This document shows positions 1 through 62,179 of a stretch of 64,000 nt of DNA, one piece after another. The translations under genes were made by a program, and so were the position numbers. The notes under the pieces were generated by a model. It saw nothing but the letters and a program-made list of their open reading frames with translations. It had not been told where the DNA came from and searched no databases. How positions within the stretch are numbered: the first letter of the stretch is position 1; each line of letters begins with the position of its first letter. The DNA lies in contig NZ_CP074371.1 of assembly GCF_018362975.1 (NCBI RefSeq), positions 4,526,001 to 4,590,000 of the forward strand, in the 5' to 3' direction. This DNA is from Nocardia tengchongensis. GTDB lineage: Bacteria; Actinomycetota; Actinomycetes; Mycobacteriales; Mycobacteriaceae.

Positions 1-261
1 GCCTTCATCGACGGCATCGCCGGCATCGAGGACCCCGACGCGCGGGCGCTCGCCGACACGGTCTGCGACCTGTTCGTCTACTCGACCATCGAGCAGAATC
101 AGGCCTGGTACATCATGCATCGGTTCATGTCGGTGGAGCGGGCCAAGTCGGTGCGGCGCGGGGTCAACGAACTGGTGGACCGGCTACGGCCGCAGGCGCT
201 CACCCTGATCGAGGGATTGGGCGTACCCGAGGGCGTGCTGCGCGCCGCCATGCTGGACTGA
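1..261 (+). CDS. acyl-CoA oxidase/dehydrogenase, C-terminal fragment (cut by window edge)
   Basis: Frame 1 is open from the first base to a TGA at 259-261 and gives 86 residues. The fragment reads like the last helical segment of actinobacterial acyl-CoA oxidases (VCDLFVYSTIEQNQAWYIMH, then VNELVDRLRPQALTLIEGLG). That family oxidises acyl-CoA to trans-2-enoyl-CoA with FAD. The N-terminal and middle domains and the start lie outside the window. The family call rests on remembered C-terminal sequence style, so it is moderately secure. Confidence 0.6.
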   Translation, partial: AFIDGIAGIEDPDARALADTVCDLFVYSTIEQNQAWYIMHRFMSVERAKSVRRGVNELVDRLRPQALTLIEGLGVPEGVLRAAMLD

Positions 262-9984: not shown

Positions 9985-10040
9985 TCCGGTCGGCAACATT
10001 CTTGTAACCTGCGGCCGCTTAGACTGACAGTGCGTCGCAG

Positions 10041-10235
10041 CCGTGCGGGAGAGTTCCGGGGATAGTCTCGGACGCCGAAGGAGCAGCACCTCCCCGTCAA
10101 TCTCTCAGGCACAAGGGACCGTGCGGAGTTTCGACGCCTCTGGAAAGTTGATGGTCGCGTGCCATCCGCCCATGGTGAAAGGTCACCGGTCGCAGGCCGG
10201 GACCGAATCTCTCAGGCATCGAGGACAGAGGGGGA
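10041..10235 (+). promoter_or_regulatory. tandem glycine riboswitch
   Basis: Two glycine aptamers lie head to tail in the leader of gcvP. Each ends in the diagnostic AATCTCTCAGGCA element (10099-10111 and 10206-10218). The first also shows GCGGGAGAGTTCC and GCCGAAGGAGCA (10073-10084), and the second has CCTCTGGAAAGTTG. A short linker joins them, as in classical cooperative glycine riboswitches that turn on glycine cleavage genes. The distance to the gcvP GTG is about 55 nt, including the GGAGCAGCC ribosome site, so control may be translational or transcriptional. Confidence 0.93.
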
Positions 10236-48513: not shown

Positions 48514-48915
48514 CTACCTGGACTCGGGATTGTCCTTGCGCGCGACCTCGGTGGCTTCGAGCTTAGCGAGTGCGGCGCGCAATGCGTCAGCCTCGTCCGC
48601 GCCGACCTGTTCGACGAAGTGCACCAGCGCGGCGCGGCGGCTGCCCACCTCGTCGGCCTGCTGCAGCGCGTCGAACATCAGACTGGCGACGAGTTCGTCG
48701 CGGGTGTGGACGGGCGCGTAGCGGTGTGCGCGGTCGTCGCGCTGCTGGACCACGAGGTTCTTCTTCGCCAAGCGCTGTAGAACGGTCATCACCGTGGTGT
48801 ACGCGAGTTCACGACGCTCAGCGAGGGCTTCATGGACCTGCCGGACGGTTTGCGGTTCGTCGGCCGACCACAACTGGTCCATGACCGCTTTCTCGAGTTC
48901 ACCAAGACCTGCCAT
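48514..48915 (-). CDS. BlaI/MecI/CopY-family repressor
   Basis: The 133-residue winged-helix repressor has GELEKAVMDQLWSADEPQTV (helix 1) and ELAYTTVMTVLQRLAKKNLV (recognition helix and wing), then a dimerisation tail. The M. tuberculosis orthologue is Rv1846c, which controls blaC and its own operon and is cleaved after beta-lactam stress. An imperfect dyad in its promoter (48950-48966) resembles the TACTACA-type BlaI operator. It heads the operon with the M56 protease and the helicase. Confidence 0.92.
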   Translation of the reverse strand: MAGLGELEKAVMDQLWSADEPQTVRQVHEALAERRELAYTTVMTVLQRLAKKNLVVQQRDDRAHRYAPVHTRDELVASLMFDALQQADEVGSRRAALVHFVEQVGADEADALRAALAKLEATEVARKDNPESR

Positions 48916-51194: not shown

Positions 51195-52232
51195 TCACAG
51201 GCTCACCAGCTTTCGGCGGCGGACGAGCAGCAGGAAGAACGGCGCGCCGAGCGCGGCGAGGGTGATGCCCGCCTGGAGTTCGCCCGGGCGGGCGATCAGG
51301 CGGCCGGCGGTGTCGGCCAGCAGCAGCACCACCGCGCCCAGCAGTGCCGAGTAGGGGAGTAGCCAGCGGTAGTCGGGGCCGGTGACGGCGCGGGCCAGGT
51401 GGGGGACGATCAGTCCGAGGAAGGCGATGGGGCCGACGGCGGCGGTGGCCGCGCCTGCGAGCAGCACGACGGCGGTCAGGCCCAGGGCCCGGCTGCGGGT
51501 GAGGTTGACACCGAGGCCGCGGGCCACGTCGTCGCCGAGGCCGAGCAGGTTCAGGGCGGGGGCGCAGGCCAGCGCCAGGATCGTGCCGACCAGCAGGAAG
51601 GGCAGGATCTGGCGGATGGTGGCGGCGTCGTGCCCGGCGACGTCGCCGACCACCCAGTACCGGTAGGTGTTGAGGGCGGTGCCGTCGAGCAGGACCACGA
51701 TATTGGTCATGGCCTGCAGGAACGCGGTGACGGCCGCGCCGGCCAGGACCAGGCTCAGCGGGCTGGCCTTGCCGCCGCCGAGGGCGGAGACGCCGAAGAC
51801 GACCAGGCCCGCGAGCAGTGCGCCCGCGAACGCGAACCAGATGTACTGGGCGGGCGCGGTGAGCGCGAGCAGGTGGATGCTCAGGGCCGCCAGGAAGGCC
51901 GCGCCCGCGTTGATGCCGAGTAATCCGGCGTCCGCGAGGGGGTTTCGGGTGTAGCCCTGGATGAGTGCCCCGGCCATGCCGAGCGCGAGTCCGGTGCTGA
52001 GGGCGAGTCCGGTTCGGGGGAGCCGCAATTCGCGCACGATCTGGGCGGCGGTATCGGTGGCGGGGCACGAAAGTGGCAGTCCACCAGGGCAGACGATGGC
52101 GTCATAGACGGTTCCCAGGCCCAGATTGCGGGTGCCGAGGGCGATGCTGGCGGCGACCGCGCACAGCAGGAGCATGGTGAGGACGAGAAGTCCGGACAGA
52201 CGTCGCCGTCTGGTGGTGACTACGGCGGGCAC
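51195..52232 (-). CDS. FecCD-type siderophore permease 1
   Basis: The 345-residue permease has the family hallmarks RLPRTGLALSTGLALGMAGA, NPLADAGLLGINAGAAF and GPIAFLGLIVPHLARA. It has 9-10 TM segments and pairs with the second permease to make the membrane channel of an Fe3+-siderophore importer. It is the first gene of the operon, 40 nt from an IdeR/DtxR-type box (52272-52290), so iron repression is very likely. Confidence 0.94.
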   Translation of the reverse strand: MPAVVTTRRRRLSGLLVLTMLLLCAVAASIALGTRNLGLGTVYDAIVCPGGLPLSCPATDTAAQIVRELRLPRTGLALSTGLALGMAGALIQGYTRNPLADAGLLGINAGAAFLAALSIHLLALTAPAQYIWFAFAGALLAGLVVFGVSALGGGKASPLSLVLAGAAVTAFLQAMTNIVVLLDGTALNTYRYWVVGDVAGHDAATIRQILPFLLVGTILALACAPALNLLGLGDDVARGLGVNLTRSRALGLTAVVLLAGAATAAVGPIAFLGLIVPHLARAVTGPDYRWLLPYSALLGAVVLLLADTAGRLIARPGELQAGITLAALGAPFFLLLVRRRKLVSL

Positions 52233-52271: not shown

Positions 52272-52290
52272 TCTGGTAAGCCTAACCTAT
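52272..52290. promoter_or_regulatory. IdeR/DtxR-type iron box shared by fecCD and the fhuF-like gene
   Basis: On the minus strand the site reads ATAGGTTAGGCTTACCAGA, 15 of 19 positions like the IdeR consensus TTAGGTTAGGCTAACCTAA. It lies between the divergent fecCD1 and fhuF-like genes and can control both when iron is plentiful. Confidence 0.75.
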
Positions 52291-56216: not shown

Positions 56217-57051
56217 ATGGCGAACATGCAAGGCGTAGCGACGTTTTCGGTCATGGAGGCGCCTGCTGTGCACGGGACGGGCCGCCTGACATCGGATCTC
56301 GATGGTGCGGCCGTGCAGCCGCCGAGTTTCGGCGCGGTGCTGCGCCGGCTGCGGGACGAGCGCAGGGTGTCGCGCGAGCGTCTGGGCATGTCGGCGGGGC
56401 GTGAGCGCCAGCTACATCACCCATCTGGAACTCGGGCGCCGCGGCCGCCCCACCCAGGCCGTGGTGGAAGCCCTGTTCGCGTGCCTGCATCGAGTCCAGC
56501 CGGTTTCGCACCGCTCGCGGCGCTACCTCTTCGATCTGGCCGGCCTGCCCGACCCGGCTGCCCCGTCGCTCGCTGAACTGCGGGCCGCGATCGATCCGGC
56601 CAAGCTGCGCCGCCTGGAGCGGCTCGGCCCCGATCCGGCCGGTTACTTCGATTCCCGCTGGCACGTCCTGGCTTTGAACGACGCCGCCCGCCTGGCCTTC
56701 CCCGGCCTGACCGAGGGCGGCAACTGGCTGATCTGGCTGCTGGAGGACTCCCGCGCCACGACCGCCCTCCTCGACCGTGAGGCCGCGGCCGCCGCCTCGG
56801 TTTCGGTCCTGCGCGCCCGCATCGCCGCCTTCGACGTCCCGGAATGGTCCGGCGATTATCTCCGCGACCTCGGCCGCAGCCCGGAATTCCGCCGCCTGTG
56901 GTCGCGAGCCCAAGACCTCGACCATCCCGGCGAACGCATCATCCGCCTGCGCGATCGCCGCGGCGAAGTCCCACTGGACATGCAGCTCTACGACGTCGAA
57001 AGCGCCCGCTACCCGGGCTGGATTCGCATGCTGTGGGGAATGACCTGCTGA
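56217..57051 (+). CDS. XRE-family regulator with MmyB-like ligand-binding domain, frame disrupted by one base
   Basis: The restored protein is about 277 residues. The helix-turn-helix (FGAVLRRLRDERRVSRERLG) is interrupted by an extra G in the run 56396-56399, exactly at MSAG. The next frame continues VSASYITHLELGRRGRPTQA and the MmyB-like ligand-binding domain (FDSRWHVLALNDAARLAFPG, WSGDYLRDLGRSPEFRRLWS). Removal of one G restores the whole chain. The ATG at 56217 has GGGAGA upstream. A hairpin follows 20 nt after the stop. Confidence 0.85.
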
Positions 57052-57071
57052 AATTCTCACCCGAATACAGA

Positions 57072-57117
57072 GGTGGTGGGTTCTGTCGATCGATCACATT
57101 CGACAGAACCCACCACC
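57072..57117. terminator. 18-bp perfect hairpin terminator (bidirectional)
   Basis: GGTGGTGGGTTCTGTCGA and TCGACAGAACCCACCACC form an 18-bp perfect stem with a 10-nt loop, 20 nt past the XRE stop. On the minus strand it would end the short transcript from the iron-regulated promoter at 57178-57206. There is no strong T tract on either side, which is common in actinobacterial terminators. Confidence 0.85.
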
Positions 57118-57171
57118 GGCAGGGGATCGGGGCCACCGCAGCCCTCGGGGCCTCACACGATCCTGACGCCG
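57072..57171 (-). ncRNA. candidate iron-regulated small RNA (MrsI-like by position)
   Basis: A promoter with an embedded IdeR box (57178-57206) points along the minus strand into a gene-free 100-nt stretch that ends in an 18-bp hairpin. Within it, GGATCG and CGATCC, with inner GGCC pairs, can form a second hairpin. No open frame with a ribosome site is seen. In M. tuberculosis the iron-responsive sRNA MrsI (ncRv11846) lies between Rv1846c and Rv1847. The homologues of those genes flank this region here, although accessory genes have been inserted. Expression is unproved. Confidence 0.5.
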
Positions 57172-57177
57172 GTTATG

Positions 57178-57206
57178 AGTGTAGGTCAGGCTTACCTAAC
57201 TTGCAA
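57178..57206 (-). promoter_or_regulatory. iron-box promoter with no protein gene behind it
   Basis: On the minus strand TTGCAA (57201-57206) and TACACT (57178-57183) are spaced by exactly 17 nt. The IdeR/DtxR-like box GTAGGTCAGGCTTACCTAA (plus strand 57181-57199, 16 of 19 consensus positions) fills the spacer. That is the usual geometry of an iron-repressed promoter. The predicted start is near 57171. Confidence 0.65.
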
Positions 57207-57253
57207 GCACTTCGACCTTCTGGCCCGAGGGCGGTATTTCGGCTGGTGGGCGC

Positions 57254-58216
57254 TCAGCGGGTGGGGCGGGGGCCGATGATGGAGGCGCGCTCCACGATTC
57301 GGGGCTGCGGCCAGTAGTCGCTGGCGGCGTAGTGCTGGACCGCGCGGTTGTCCCAGAAGGCGACGGTGTGCGGCTGCCACGTCAGGCGGACCTGGTGTTC
57401 GGGGTAGTCGGCCGCGCGGGCCAGGCGGTCGATGAGGTCATGGCTGCGGTCGGGCTCGTAGCCGACGATGTGGTCGGTGAAGATGCGGTTCACGTAGAGA
57501 TGCTTGCGGCCGGTCTCGGCGTGGGTGGCGACGACCGGGTGCGTCACCGACGGGTTGCGGCGGCGCATCTCGGCCTGCTGCTCGGGCGAGGCGTGAGCGC
57601 CGAAGGCGCGGGTGAAATCGTGGACGGCATCGAGATCGTCGATCTCCGTTCGGGTCTCGTCGTCCAATGATTCGTAGGCGGCATACATGTCGGAGAACAG
57701 GGTGTCGCCACCGATCGCGGGGACGGCCACCGCGTGCAGGATCGCTCCCATCGACGGCTGCTCGCGCCAGGTGACGTCATGGTGCCAGGCGTTCTCGACG
57801 CCGACCATCTGCGCACCTTTCTCGAAGCGGACCAGTTCGGGCTGATCGGAACTGGCGGCCAGGGCGGGATGGATCTCGAGTTCGCCGAAGCGCCGGGCGA
57901 AGGCGACATGCTGGTCCGGAGTCAGCGGCTGGTCCCGGAAGAACAGCACCTTGTAGTCGTGCAGGGCGCGACGCAGTTCGGCGATGACCTCCGGCGGCTG
58001 CGGGACGGTCAGGTCGACGCCGCTGATCTCCGCACCCAGAGTCGCCGCGACCTGCCGAGCGTCGAAATGCTGCCATCGCAGTGCGGCCAGCCGCTCGCGT
58101 TCGGCCCGCAGGTGGACGAAGGGCCCGGCCAGCAGCGGATAGTCGCCCAGTTGGAAGGGCCGCACCCCCTGCTCGGCGCTGTCTACCGGTGTGGCCGTCA
58201 TGGTCGATTCGGACAT
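57254..58216 (-). CDS. TauD/TfdA-family Fe(II)/2-oxoglutarate dioxygenase
   Basis: The 320-residue protein has the iron facial triad visible as His-x-Asp in NAWHHDVTW (about residue 142) and a distal His in AVQHYAASDYWPQ. The 2-oxoglutarate Arg follows in RIVERASI. The AEISGVDLTVPQPPEVIAEL opening is typical of taurine-dioxygenase-like enzymes, which oxidise sulfonates or related acids. A divergent TetR gene and two operator copies in between suggest substrate-induced expression. The substrate is unknown. Confidence 0.9.
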   Translation of the reverse strand: MSESTMTATPVDSAEQGVRPFQLGDYPLLAGPFVHLRAERERLAALRWQHFDARQVAATLGAEISGVDLTVPQPPEVIAELRRALHDYKVLFFRDQPLTPDQHVAFARRFGELEIHPALAASSDQPELVRFEKGAQMVGVENAWHHDVTWREQPSMGAILHAVAVPAIGGDTLFSDMYAAYESLDDETRTEIDDLDAVHDFTRAFGAHASPEQQAEMRRRNPSVTHPVVATHAETGRKHLYVNRIFTDHIVGYEPDRSHDLIDRLARAADYPEHQVRLTWQPHTVAFWDNRAVQHYAASDYWPQPRIVERASIIGPRPTR

Positions 58217-59276: not shown

Positions 59277-59714
59277 ATGAGCGCCGACTTCTCTTCGATC
59301 AAATCCCTGGCCGATGTGACGCCTGAGCTGATGAACAAGCTCAGTGAGGGGACGTTCACTGATCTGATCGGGTTGAAATTCACGGAGTTGAGTGGGGATA
59401 AGGTGGCTGCGGAGTGGGTGGTTACGCCGCAGTTGTTTCAGCCTGCTGGGATTGTGAATGGTGGGGTCTACTGCACGGTTATCGAGACGTTGGCCAGTGT
59501 GGCGGGCGGGGCCTGGTTGGGGGATCGGGGGACTGTTGTGGGGGTGAACAACAACACTGACTTCTTGCGGGCGGTGCGGGAGGGAAAGTTGACGGGGGTG
59601 GCTTCGCCTATTCATCGGGGGCGGTCTCAGCAGTTGTGGCAGGTGGTCATTACTGATGAGCAGGAGCGGACGGTGGCTCGGGGGCAGGTGCGGTTGCAGA
59701 ATCTGGGCACGTAG
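59277..59714 (+). CDS. PaaI-type hotdog thioesterase (Rv1847-like)
   Basis: The 145-residue single hotdog domain has the PaaI/HGG motif GIVNGGVYCTVIETLASVAG (about residues 59-78), with Asn-Gly-Gly in place of HGG and the catalytic-position Glu in the following helix. VGVNNNTDFLRAVREG and ARGQVRL complete the fold. The ATG at 59277 is used. It lies upstream of ureABC as Rv1847 does, but a 121-nt gap suggests separate promoters. The acyl-CoA substrate is unknown. Confidence 0.9.
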   Translation: MSADFSSIKSLADVTPELMNKLSEGTFTDLIGLKFTELSGDKVAAEWVVTPQLFQPAGIVNGGVYCTVIETLASVAGGAWLGDRGTVVGVNNNTDFLRAVREGKLTGVASPIHRGRSQQLWQVVITDEQERTVARGQVRLQNLGT

Positions 59715-60458: not shown

Positions 60459-62179
60459 TGGCCGAACTGTCCCGCGCCCGCTACGCCGAACTGTTCGGCC
60501 CCACCGTCGGCGACCGAATCCGGCTCGCGGACACCGACCTGCTCATCGAGATCACCGAGGACCGCAGCGGCGGACCGGGACTCGCCGGTGACGAGGCCGT
60601 CTTCGGTGGCGGCAAGGTGCTGCGCGAATCCATGGGCCAAGCCCGCGCCACCCGCGCCGAGGGCACCCCGGACACCGTCATCACCGGTGTGGTGATCGTC
60701 GACCACTGGGGAATCATCAAGGCCGACATCGGTATCCGCGACGGCCGCATCGTCGCCATCGGCAAGGCCGGCAACCCGGACACCATGAGCGGGGTGCACC
60801 CGGACCTGGTGGTCGGGCCCTCGACGGAGATCATCGCCGGCAACGGCCGCATCGTCACCGCGGGCGCCATCGACTGCCACGTGCACTTCATCTGCCCGCA
60901 GATCCTGGACGAGGCGATGGCGGGCGGCATCACCACCCTCGTCGGCGGCGGCACCGGCCCGGCCGAGGGCTCCAAGGCCACCACCGTCACCCCGGGCGCC
61001 TGGCACCTGGCCCGCATGCTGGAGTCCACCGACTCCTGGCCGGTCAACATCCTGCTGCTCGGCAAGGGCAACACGGTGCGTGAGGACGCGCTGTGGGAGC
61101 AATTGCGCGGCGGCGCGGGCGGATTCAAGCTGCACGAGGACTGGGGCACCACCCCGGCCGCCATCGACCACTGCCTCACCGTGGCCGACGCCTCCGGCGT
61201 GCAGGTGGCCCTGCACTCGGACACCTTGAACGAGGCCGGATTCGTGGAGGACACCCTGGCCGCGATCCGCGGCCGGGCCATCCACTCGTATCACACCGAG
61301 GGTGCGGGCGGCGGGCACGCGCCCGACATCATCACCGTCGCTTCGCATCTCAATGTGCTGCCCAGCTCCACCAACCCGACCCGCCCGCACACCATCAACA
61401 CCCTCGACGAGCATCTCGACATGCTCATGGTGTGTCACCACCTGAGCCCGTCCATCCCCGAGGACCTGGCCTTCGCGGAGAGCCGGATCCGGCCCTCCAC
61501 CATCGCCGCCGAGGACCTGCTGCACGACCTCGGCGCGATCTCCATGATCGGCTCCGACGCCCAGGCCATGGGCCGCATCGGCGAGGTCGTCATGCGCACC
61601 TGGCAGACCGCGCACGTCATGAAGCGCCGCCGCGGTGCCCTGCCCGGCGACGGCGCCGCCGACAACAACCGCGCGCAACGCTATGTCGCGAAATACACGA
61701 TCTGCCCGGCCGTCACCCACGGCCTGGACGCCGAGATCGGCTCGATCGAGGTCGGCAAACTCGCCGACCTGGTGCTGTGGGAGCCCGCCTTCTTCGGTGT
61801 CCGCCCGCACGCGGTCATCAAGGGCGGCGCGATCGCGTGGGCGGCGATGGGTGACGCCAACGCCTCCATCCCGACCCCGCAGCCGGTGTTGCCGCGCCCC
61901 ATGTTCGGCGCCGCGCCGAGTGTCGCGGCCGGCACCTCCCTGCATTTCGTCTCCGAGCAGGCCATCGAGGACGGCCTCGCGAACCGCCTGCGGGTGAACC
62001 GGAAACTGGTACCGGTGGCCAACGTTCGCCGCCGCACCAAGGCCGACCTCCCCAACAATGACGCCATGCCCCGCATCGAGGTCGAACCCGACACCTTCAC
62101 CGTCCGCATCGACGGCGAGGTGTGGAGCGAGCAGCCCGCCACCGAGCTACCCATGGCCCAGCGCTACTTCCTGTTCTGA
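60458..62179 (+). CDS. ureC: urease alpha subunit, catalytic
   Basis: The 573-residue protein has all the metal and catalytic residues: DCHVHF (nickel histidines), the lysine that is carbamylated in [22 protein letters not shown] and [12 protein letters not shown] histidines, the flap [18 protein letters not shown] with its mobile Cys-His, and the nickel Asp in GSDAQAMGR. The enzyme should be functional when loaded with nickel. No ureF, ureG or ureD follows; the next gene is an O-methyltransferase. Confidence 0.98.

Follow-up and report, generated by a model that had tools for sequence, protein, structure and literature searches.

In the window (the whole 64,000-nt stretch of Nocardia tengchongensis DNA analysed), the minus strand from 57206 to 57063 very probably carries an orthologue of the mycobacterial small RNA MrsI, one that has probably been retargeted: an RNA that would be controlled by IdeR, spare iron and act by pairing of its apical loop. 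The comparison with relatives revealed a conserved structured RNA, its boxed promoter, its locus, an invariant loop and an enrichment of the loop complement upstream of two iron-related genes; an IdeR-boxed, terminator-ended RNA of approximately 100 nt in the MrsI interval, as proposed in the first-pass annotation, is thus supported across genera. According to the available parts of the published reports, MrsI (ncRv11846) of Mycobacterium is encoded at H37Rv 2096766-2096867 in the blaI-Rv1847 interval (PMC8628891) and is a 100-nt RNA with an IdeR box, a terminator, a 7-nt apical loop, a seed of 6-8 nt and bfrA as target (PMC8628891, PMC11188477, PMC12101431). In the literature searched, MrsI was described from mycobacteria alone; the available part of a study of Nocardia brasiliensis ncRNAs (PMC5543724) names no transcript with the neighbours of this RNA, and its several intergenic transcripts between "hypothetical protein" genes and 146 supplementary predictions may already include it unnamed. 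The features of the locus are as follows.

57178..57206, minus: promoter as a whole (sequence, conservation in relatives' loci)
57201-57206, minus: -35 element TTGCAA, read from the sequence
57178-57183, minus: -10 element TACACT, read from the sequence, 17-bp spacer to the -35 element
57181..57199, minus: IdeR/DtxR-type iron box, putative repressor site, between -35 and -10 and overlapping the -10 element
57063..57173, minus: predicted MrsI-type sRNA, ~100-110 nt (model match, conservation, covariation, fold)
57124..57163, minus: inner stem-loop, GGAUCG (57158-57163) paired with CGAUCC (57124-57129), then the seed hairpin
57139..57145, minus: apical loop AGGGCUG, predicted seed with core GGGCUG (invariance, enriched complement)
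57072..57117, minus: intrinsic-terminator-like hairpin, 18 bp with 10-nt loop, followed by UCUGUAUUC
48514..48915, minus: BlaI homologue (Penicillinase_R; PDB match), bordering the MrsI interval on the left
56302..57051, plus: MmyB-like (MLTR_LBD) regulator, convergent with the sRNA and facing its terminator
57254..58216, minus: TauD-family dioxygenase, same strand as the sRNA and upstream of its promoter
59277..59714, plus: Rv1847-like thioesterase (4HBT), right border (PDB match), ureABC next

The promoter TTGCAA-17-TACACT is present on the minus strand as annotated, and the IdeR/DtxR-like site reported inside it was confirmed as the best match of the window: compared with TTAGGTTAGGCTAACCTAA, which we take to be the IdeR consensus, positions 57181-57199 agree in 16 of 19 letters read on the plus strand (15/19 on the minus strand), score highest of all 19-mers in the 64 kb and form the sole site with at most three mismatches (expected 0.00; 100 shuffles). 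Upstream of the loop, within 120 nt, a box of at least 13/19 was found in 157 of 162 loop-positive loci compared with 26 of 810 random windows from the same loci, and a TTGnnn-16..18-TAnnnT promoter in 152 of the 162, a set in which one place occurs more than once and at least one locus (L187) is not a member; locus L164 is without a box. The position of the box suggests that IdeR would repress the sRNA promoter at 57181-57199. The box is not an "orphan", as it had been called, since a second IdeR-like box (15/19) is located on the minus strand at 52272-52290; a minus-strand gene for a FecCD siderophore permease starts approximately 40 bp downstream of it, at 52232, and the transporter therefore probably belongs to the same regulon as the sRNA.

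The 5' end of the RNA is predicted at 57170-57174 and its 3' end at approximately 57063, after a U/C-rich tail; the covariance-model match covers genome positions 4583063-4583171 (window 57063-57171). An outer stem encloses an inner hairpin with the apical loop AGGGCUG and is followed by the terminator hairpin, whose 18 bp, described beforehand as perfect and downstream of the predicted start, were verified (arms 57072-57089 and 57100-57117); the U-tract 3' of it is poor (UCUGUAUUC). The calculated fold energy is -62.5 kcal/mol versus -40.8 +/- 3.7 kcal/mol for shuffled sequences (z -5.9). Relatives of the genus share one architecture, i.e. the box in the promoter, then GGCG..GGAUCG..seed hairpin..CGAUCC..UGCC, then the hairpin, with the sequence of the latter varying while its pairing and position are kept. 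For the genus alignment A1 (23 of 29 distinct sequences used), which was not fitted to a structure, RNAalifold predicted 33 pairs, 14 of them with compensatory changes. In the alignment A4 of 88 matches, which was fitted to the structure of the model and thereby favours that structure, 95.7% of cells were paired versus 78.7% in shuffles, both sides had changed in 26 of 33 pairs versus 20.3 in shuffles, and the covariation score was 0.447 versus 0.155 (0/500 shuffles as high; at most 0.091 when the partner was slid); in the terminator, all 15 modelled pairs showed compensatory changes (88 sequences). Given the large gap to the shuffles, and given that A1, unfitted, led to a prediction of its own, the predicted structure can be regarded as safe. 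All 88 aligned RNAs share the loop AGGGCUG, and its closing stem covaries (CUG/CAG 69, CCG/CGG 15, CAG/CUG 3, CGG/CCG 1); in one further genus (g13, locus L347) the loop reads UGGGCUG, with the six bases GGGCUG kept.

These data bear on the idea that the region codes for a small protein instead of an RNA. Mechanically called open reading frames do cross it in the window, and to this extent the earlier statement that no reading frame is present does not hold; however, 59 of the 88 aligned RNAs contain no frame with both start and stop inside (the others: 1-27 amino acids), the core shows insertions or deletions of one and two bases among the genus relatives, and the stems show compensatory change, all of which makes a coding function exceedingly improbable. 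A comparison with Rfam gave no family at gathering score over the sRNA locus; at E<=1, the interval 56900-57400 yielded just mir-1304 (0.18) and sR53 (0.5), both far below their cut-offs.

The assignment of the borders to homologues of Rv1846c (BlaI) and Rv1847 was corroborated by the best PDB matches: the BlaI homologue hits 2g9w (8.8e-57; listed under the title "conserved hypothetical protein"), which we take to be Rv1846c, and the thioesterase hits 3s4k ("Putative esterase Rv1847/MT1895", 8e-40). Both genes are 10.4 kb apart and enclose FecCD transporters, AraC and other regulators, TauD and TetR genes; these accessory genes, suspected of being later insertions, are absent from many blaI-Rv1847 intervals of the relatives. 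Among 152 distinct loci, 127 have the Rv1847-like gene downstream in the same orientation as the sRNA, 11 have it on the opposite strand and 14 lack it in the 1.5-2 kb flank; the BlaI homologue is divergent in 86, on the same strand in one and outside the 1.5-2 kb flank in 65, where FecCD-like genes are often found instead. The possible difference in orientation from MrsI was also borne out: the sRNA and the Rv1847 homologue lie on opposite strands in the window itself and in 11 of the 152 loci, all from the window's genus.

With a 204-nt query, a match was obtained in 145 of 148 genomes of Nocardia (own genome included), and these genus-wide matches start at the iron box and reach as far as the base of the terminator hairpin. 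This extent argues against the view that the hairpin is a mere shared terminator of the convergent regulator (56302-57051, plus) and TauD gene (57254-58216, minus), next to a stray iron box. The hairpin of the window is indeed positioned between two convergent genes, the TauD stop codon lying 47 bp before the sRNA -35 element, and would be able to stop both transcripts; however, tblastn detected neither gene's homologue beside the sRNA in the listed relatives' loci (1.5-2 kb flanks), whereas box, promoter, core RNA and hairpin move together across relatives, and such an origin of the conserved elements appears very improbable.

The covariance model R1, built from the window's genus alone, matched at E<=0.1 in 165 of 251 genomes and in 22 of the 31 genera of the family, including weak matches in g3 and g31 that are without loop or flanking genes and were discarded as chance. 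Laxer searches added three genera (g8, g25 and g28); a single R1 match in g26 (E 2.3e-4) is outside the 22 carrier genera that were inspected, and in all of the latter, out of 31 in the family, the seed is in place. Genus g6, Rhodococcus/Rhodococcoides, was among the genera examined. The genomes examined from 8 of the 31 genera yielded nothing convincing. Sixteen genomes from other families of the order were also searched, and none gave a loop-bearing match (their weak matches, without loop or flanking genes, were likewise attributed to chance); phages and plasmids gave no match to the sRNA. With strict filters and a limit of E<=1, the RNA was detected in at least 147 of 248 g29 genomes, which is an underestimate, since 14 of 38 re-searched non-matching genomes reach E<=5.4e-4 and 4/9 of the remainder match with a model R2. 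This genus is, by inference, Mycobacterium, because the BlaI of locus L158 is approximately 92% identical to 2g9w (114/124, counted by eye) and the L147 thioesterase has a match to Rv1847 (7e-61). In one g29 genome (G443, 3.3 Mb), the copy at L249 (~1517) retains the loop and an 11/19 box-like site; no terminator hairpin was seen by eye, the thioesterase is poorly conserved, and the copy looks like a decaying one.

The genus-only model recovered the RNA with its box, loop and terminator beside the blaI/Rv1847 homologues in g29 and many other genera. The identity with the M. tuberculosis MrsI is approached via the g29 genomes, the published RNA and its seed being compared by description: among the g29 matches listed, none is positioned at H37Rv 2096766-2096867 (two genomes of 4.3-4.4 Mb have neither flanking gene there), and in other g29 genomes the sRNA lies at the blaI-Rv1847 locus. 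Common to both are the blaI-Rv1847 interval, the IdeR box in the promoter, the length of ~100 nt, the 3' terminator, the 7-nt apical loop and the presence of the loop complement before bfrA in g29 and other genera. In contrast to MrsI, the window's subgroup has the sRNA inverted relative to Rv1847, with genes for siderophore transport and for regulators in the interval; a protein search of four genus genomes revealed no bfrA, and the candidate target is a class I fumarase; furthermore, the closing stem is CCG/CGG in the window's genus versus CUG/CAG in most other genera. The RNA would be of the iron-sparing type, as the first reading had it, but is better named an MrsI orthologue than a separate "Nocardia-type" sRNA.

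Targets were sought via ferritin, BfrA, one pattern scan of eight genus genomes and fumarase. If the loop is the seed, its complement CAGCCC is expected in bfrA leaders. Indeed, CAGCCC occurs before bfrA in 20 of 26 leaders (13/14 in g29, 7/12 elsewhere; absent from 6/26), compared with 4% of 100-nt windows from the same loci, and is the commonest of all 6-mers at this place; it ranks first among the 30 permutations of its letters, the 29 others averaging 2.4 of the 26 leaders, and none of 2000 single-base shuffles reached the CAGCCC counts of bfrA or of the fumarase treated below. BfrA was detected in 26 of the 40 genomes searched; at E<=1e-20, none was found in 4/4 genomes of the window's genus tested, own included, and the own genome possesses a single ferritin of a type other than BfrA. 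Several iron-box-like half sites were noticed by eye in the leaders of BfrB-type ferritins (L203, L204, L206, L212), as expected for bfrB, which is IdeR-activated.

Class I fumarases are [4Fe-4S] enzymes, and that of the window genome came to light through the pattern scan (CAGCCCT before AGGAG and a start codon, eight genus genomes). There is no genome-wide excess of the pattern, because its 37 matches (some overlapping pairs) are fewer than the 94 of the backward control; downstream frames were read for the 30 matches that became loci. Three places belong to the window genome, one of them, the one followed in relatives, at the start of a class I fumarase (PF05681). There, two CAGCCC are located 31 and 25 nt before the start, 6 nt apart. 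Within 100 nt of the fumarase start (taken as the start codon nearest to the aligned first residue), CAGCCC is present in 12/17 genus genomes, or 11/16 without the own genome, whose site is not independent evidence because the target came from the scan, and in 3/10 genomes of other genera, compared with 2.9% of random windows; the leaders without it are 5/17 and 7/10, respectively. Its positions are -22, -25/-31, -27, -48, -50 and -62, and this shifting argues against mere inheritance of one leader, although five genomes have the same double site. In rank, CAGCCC comes next after four 6-mers of a shared AGGAGTGCG block before the genus fumarases. Class I fumarase would be the best predicted target in the window's genus. 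The window genome's fumarase (L304, G000:C1:4684898 onwards, outside the window) changes frame after ~330 codons, whereas the listed relatives have one long frame; this is possibly a sequencing error. A Rieske oxygenase-like gene of another genus genome (L300, family assigned by eye) carries CAGCCCT just before its Shine-Dalgarno sequence and is a possible further target.

The iron-controlled RNA might instead act via a protein partner or as a sponge, without its loop pairing to mRNA leaders, since an invariant loop at the tip of a strong stem would suit a protein just as well and target pairing is deduced from sequence. This is improbable in view of the first rank of the exact GGGCUG complement before bfrA and its rank next to the AGGAGTGCG-block 6-mers before the genus fumarases; moreover, the published MrsI, according to the available parts of the reports, acts on bfrA through a six-nucleotide seed.

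For the loop-pairing RNA, the following course is proposed. Under iron sufficiency, IdeR would occupy the box inside the promoter and block transcription (as judged from the box and the published MrsI data); at low iron, an RNA of ~105 nt would be made that ends at the 18-bp hairpin, as its conservation suggests. The apical-loop GGGCUG would then pair with CAGCCC in the leaders of messages encoding dispensable iron proteins and reduce the translation or stability of these mRNAs, the pairing itself having comparative support; bfrA carries the site in g29 and several other genera, and class I fumarase is the best predicted target in the window's genus. Sequence comparison leads us to infer that the RNA is transcribed, that IdeR represses it, that it silences its targets and that it corresponds to the M. 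tuberculosis MrsI. RyhB of enterobacteria is an iron-repressed, iron-sparing sRNA and controls fumarase in Escherichia coli. Like RyhB and IsrR (Staphylococcus), compared here by description, the RNA would be an iron-repressed sRNA silencing dispensable iron proteins; unlike them, its repressor would be the DtxR-family IdeR and not Fur, and its seed is placed in a hairpin loop.

A broader reading, for and against which we see equal chances, regards MrsI as an ancient iron-sparing RNA of the whole family: its GGGCUG seed would have stayed fixed, and its targets would have been rewired as short CAGCCC sites came and went. Mycobacteria and their allies would have bfrA as target, and the window's genus, from which bfrA seems to be missing, class I fumarase and perhaps further iron-sulphur enzymes. 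If so, the shifting sites before fumarase would display target turnover in the act, a case of one sRNA with constant seed while the targets change. The family-wide covariance model, the invariant seed and the conserved seed sites render the MrsI mechanism testable by comparison, for an RNA covered by no Rfam family; the carriers provide non-pathogenic relatives for study, and a concrete new target, class I fumarase, is predicted where bfrA was not found.

Two other Rfam matches were recorded in the window. The 5_ureB_sRNA match at 60620-60911 (59.8 bits), on the strand opposite to ureC, may be due to conservation of the urease coding sequence and not to an RNA; a glycine riboswitch is located at 10036-10131 (61.6 bits).
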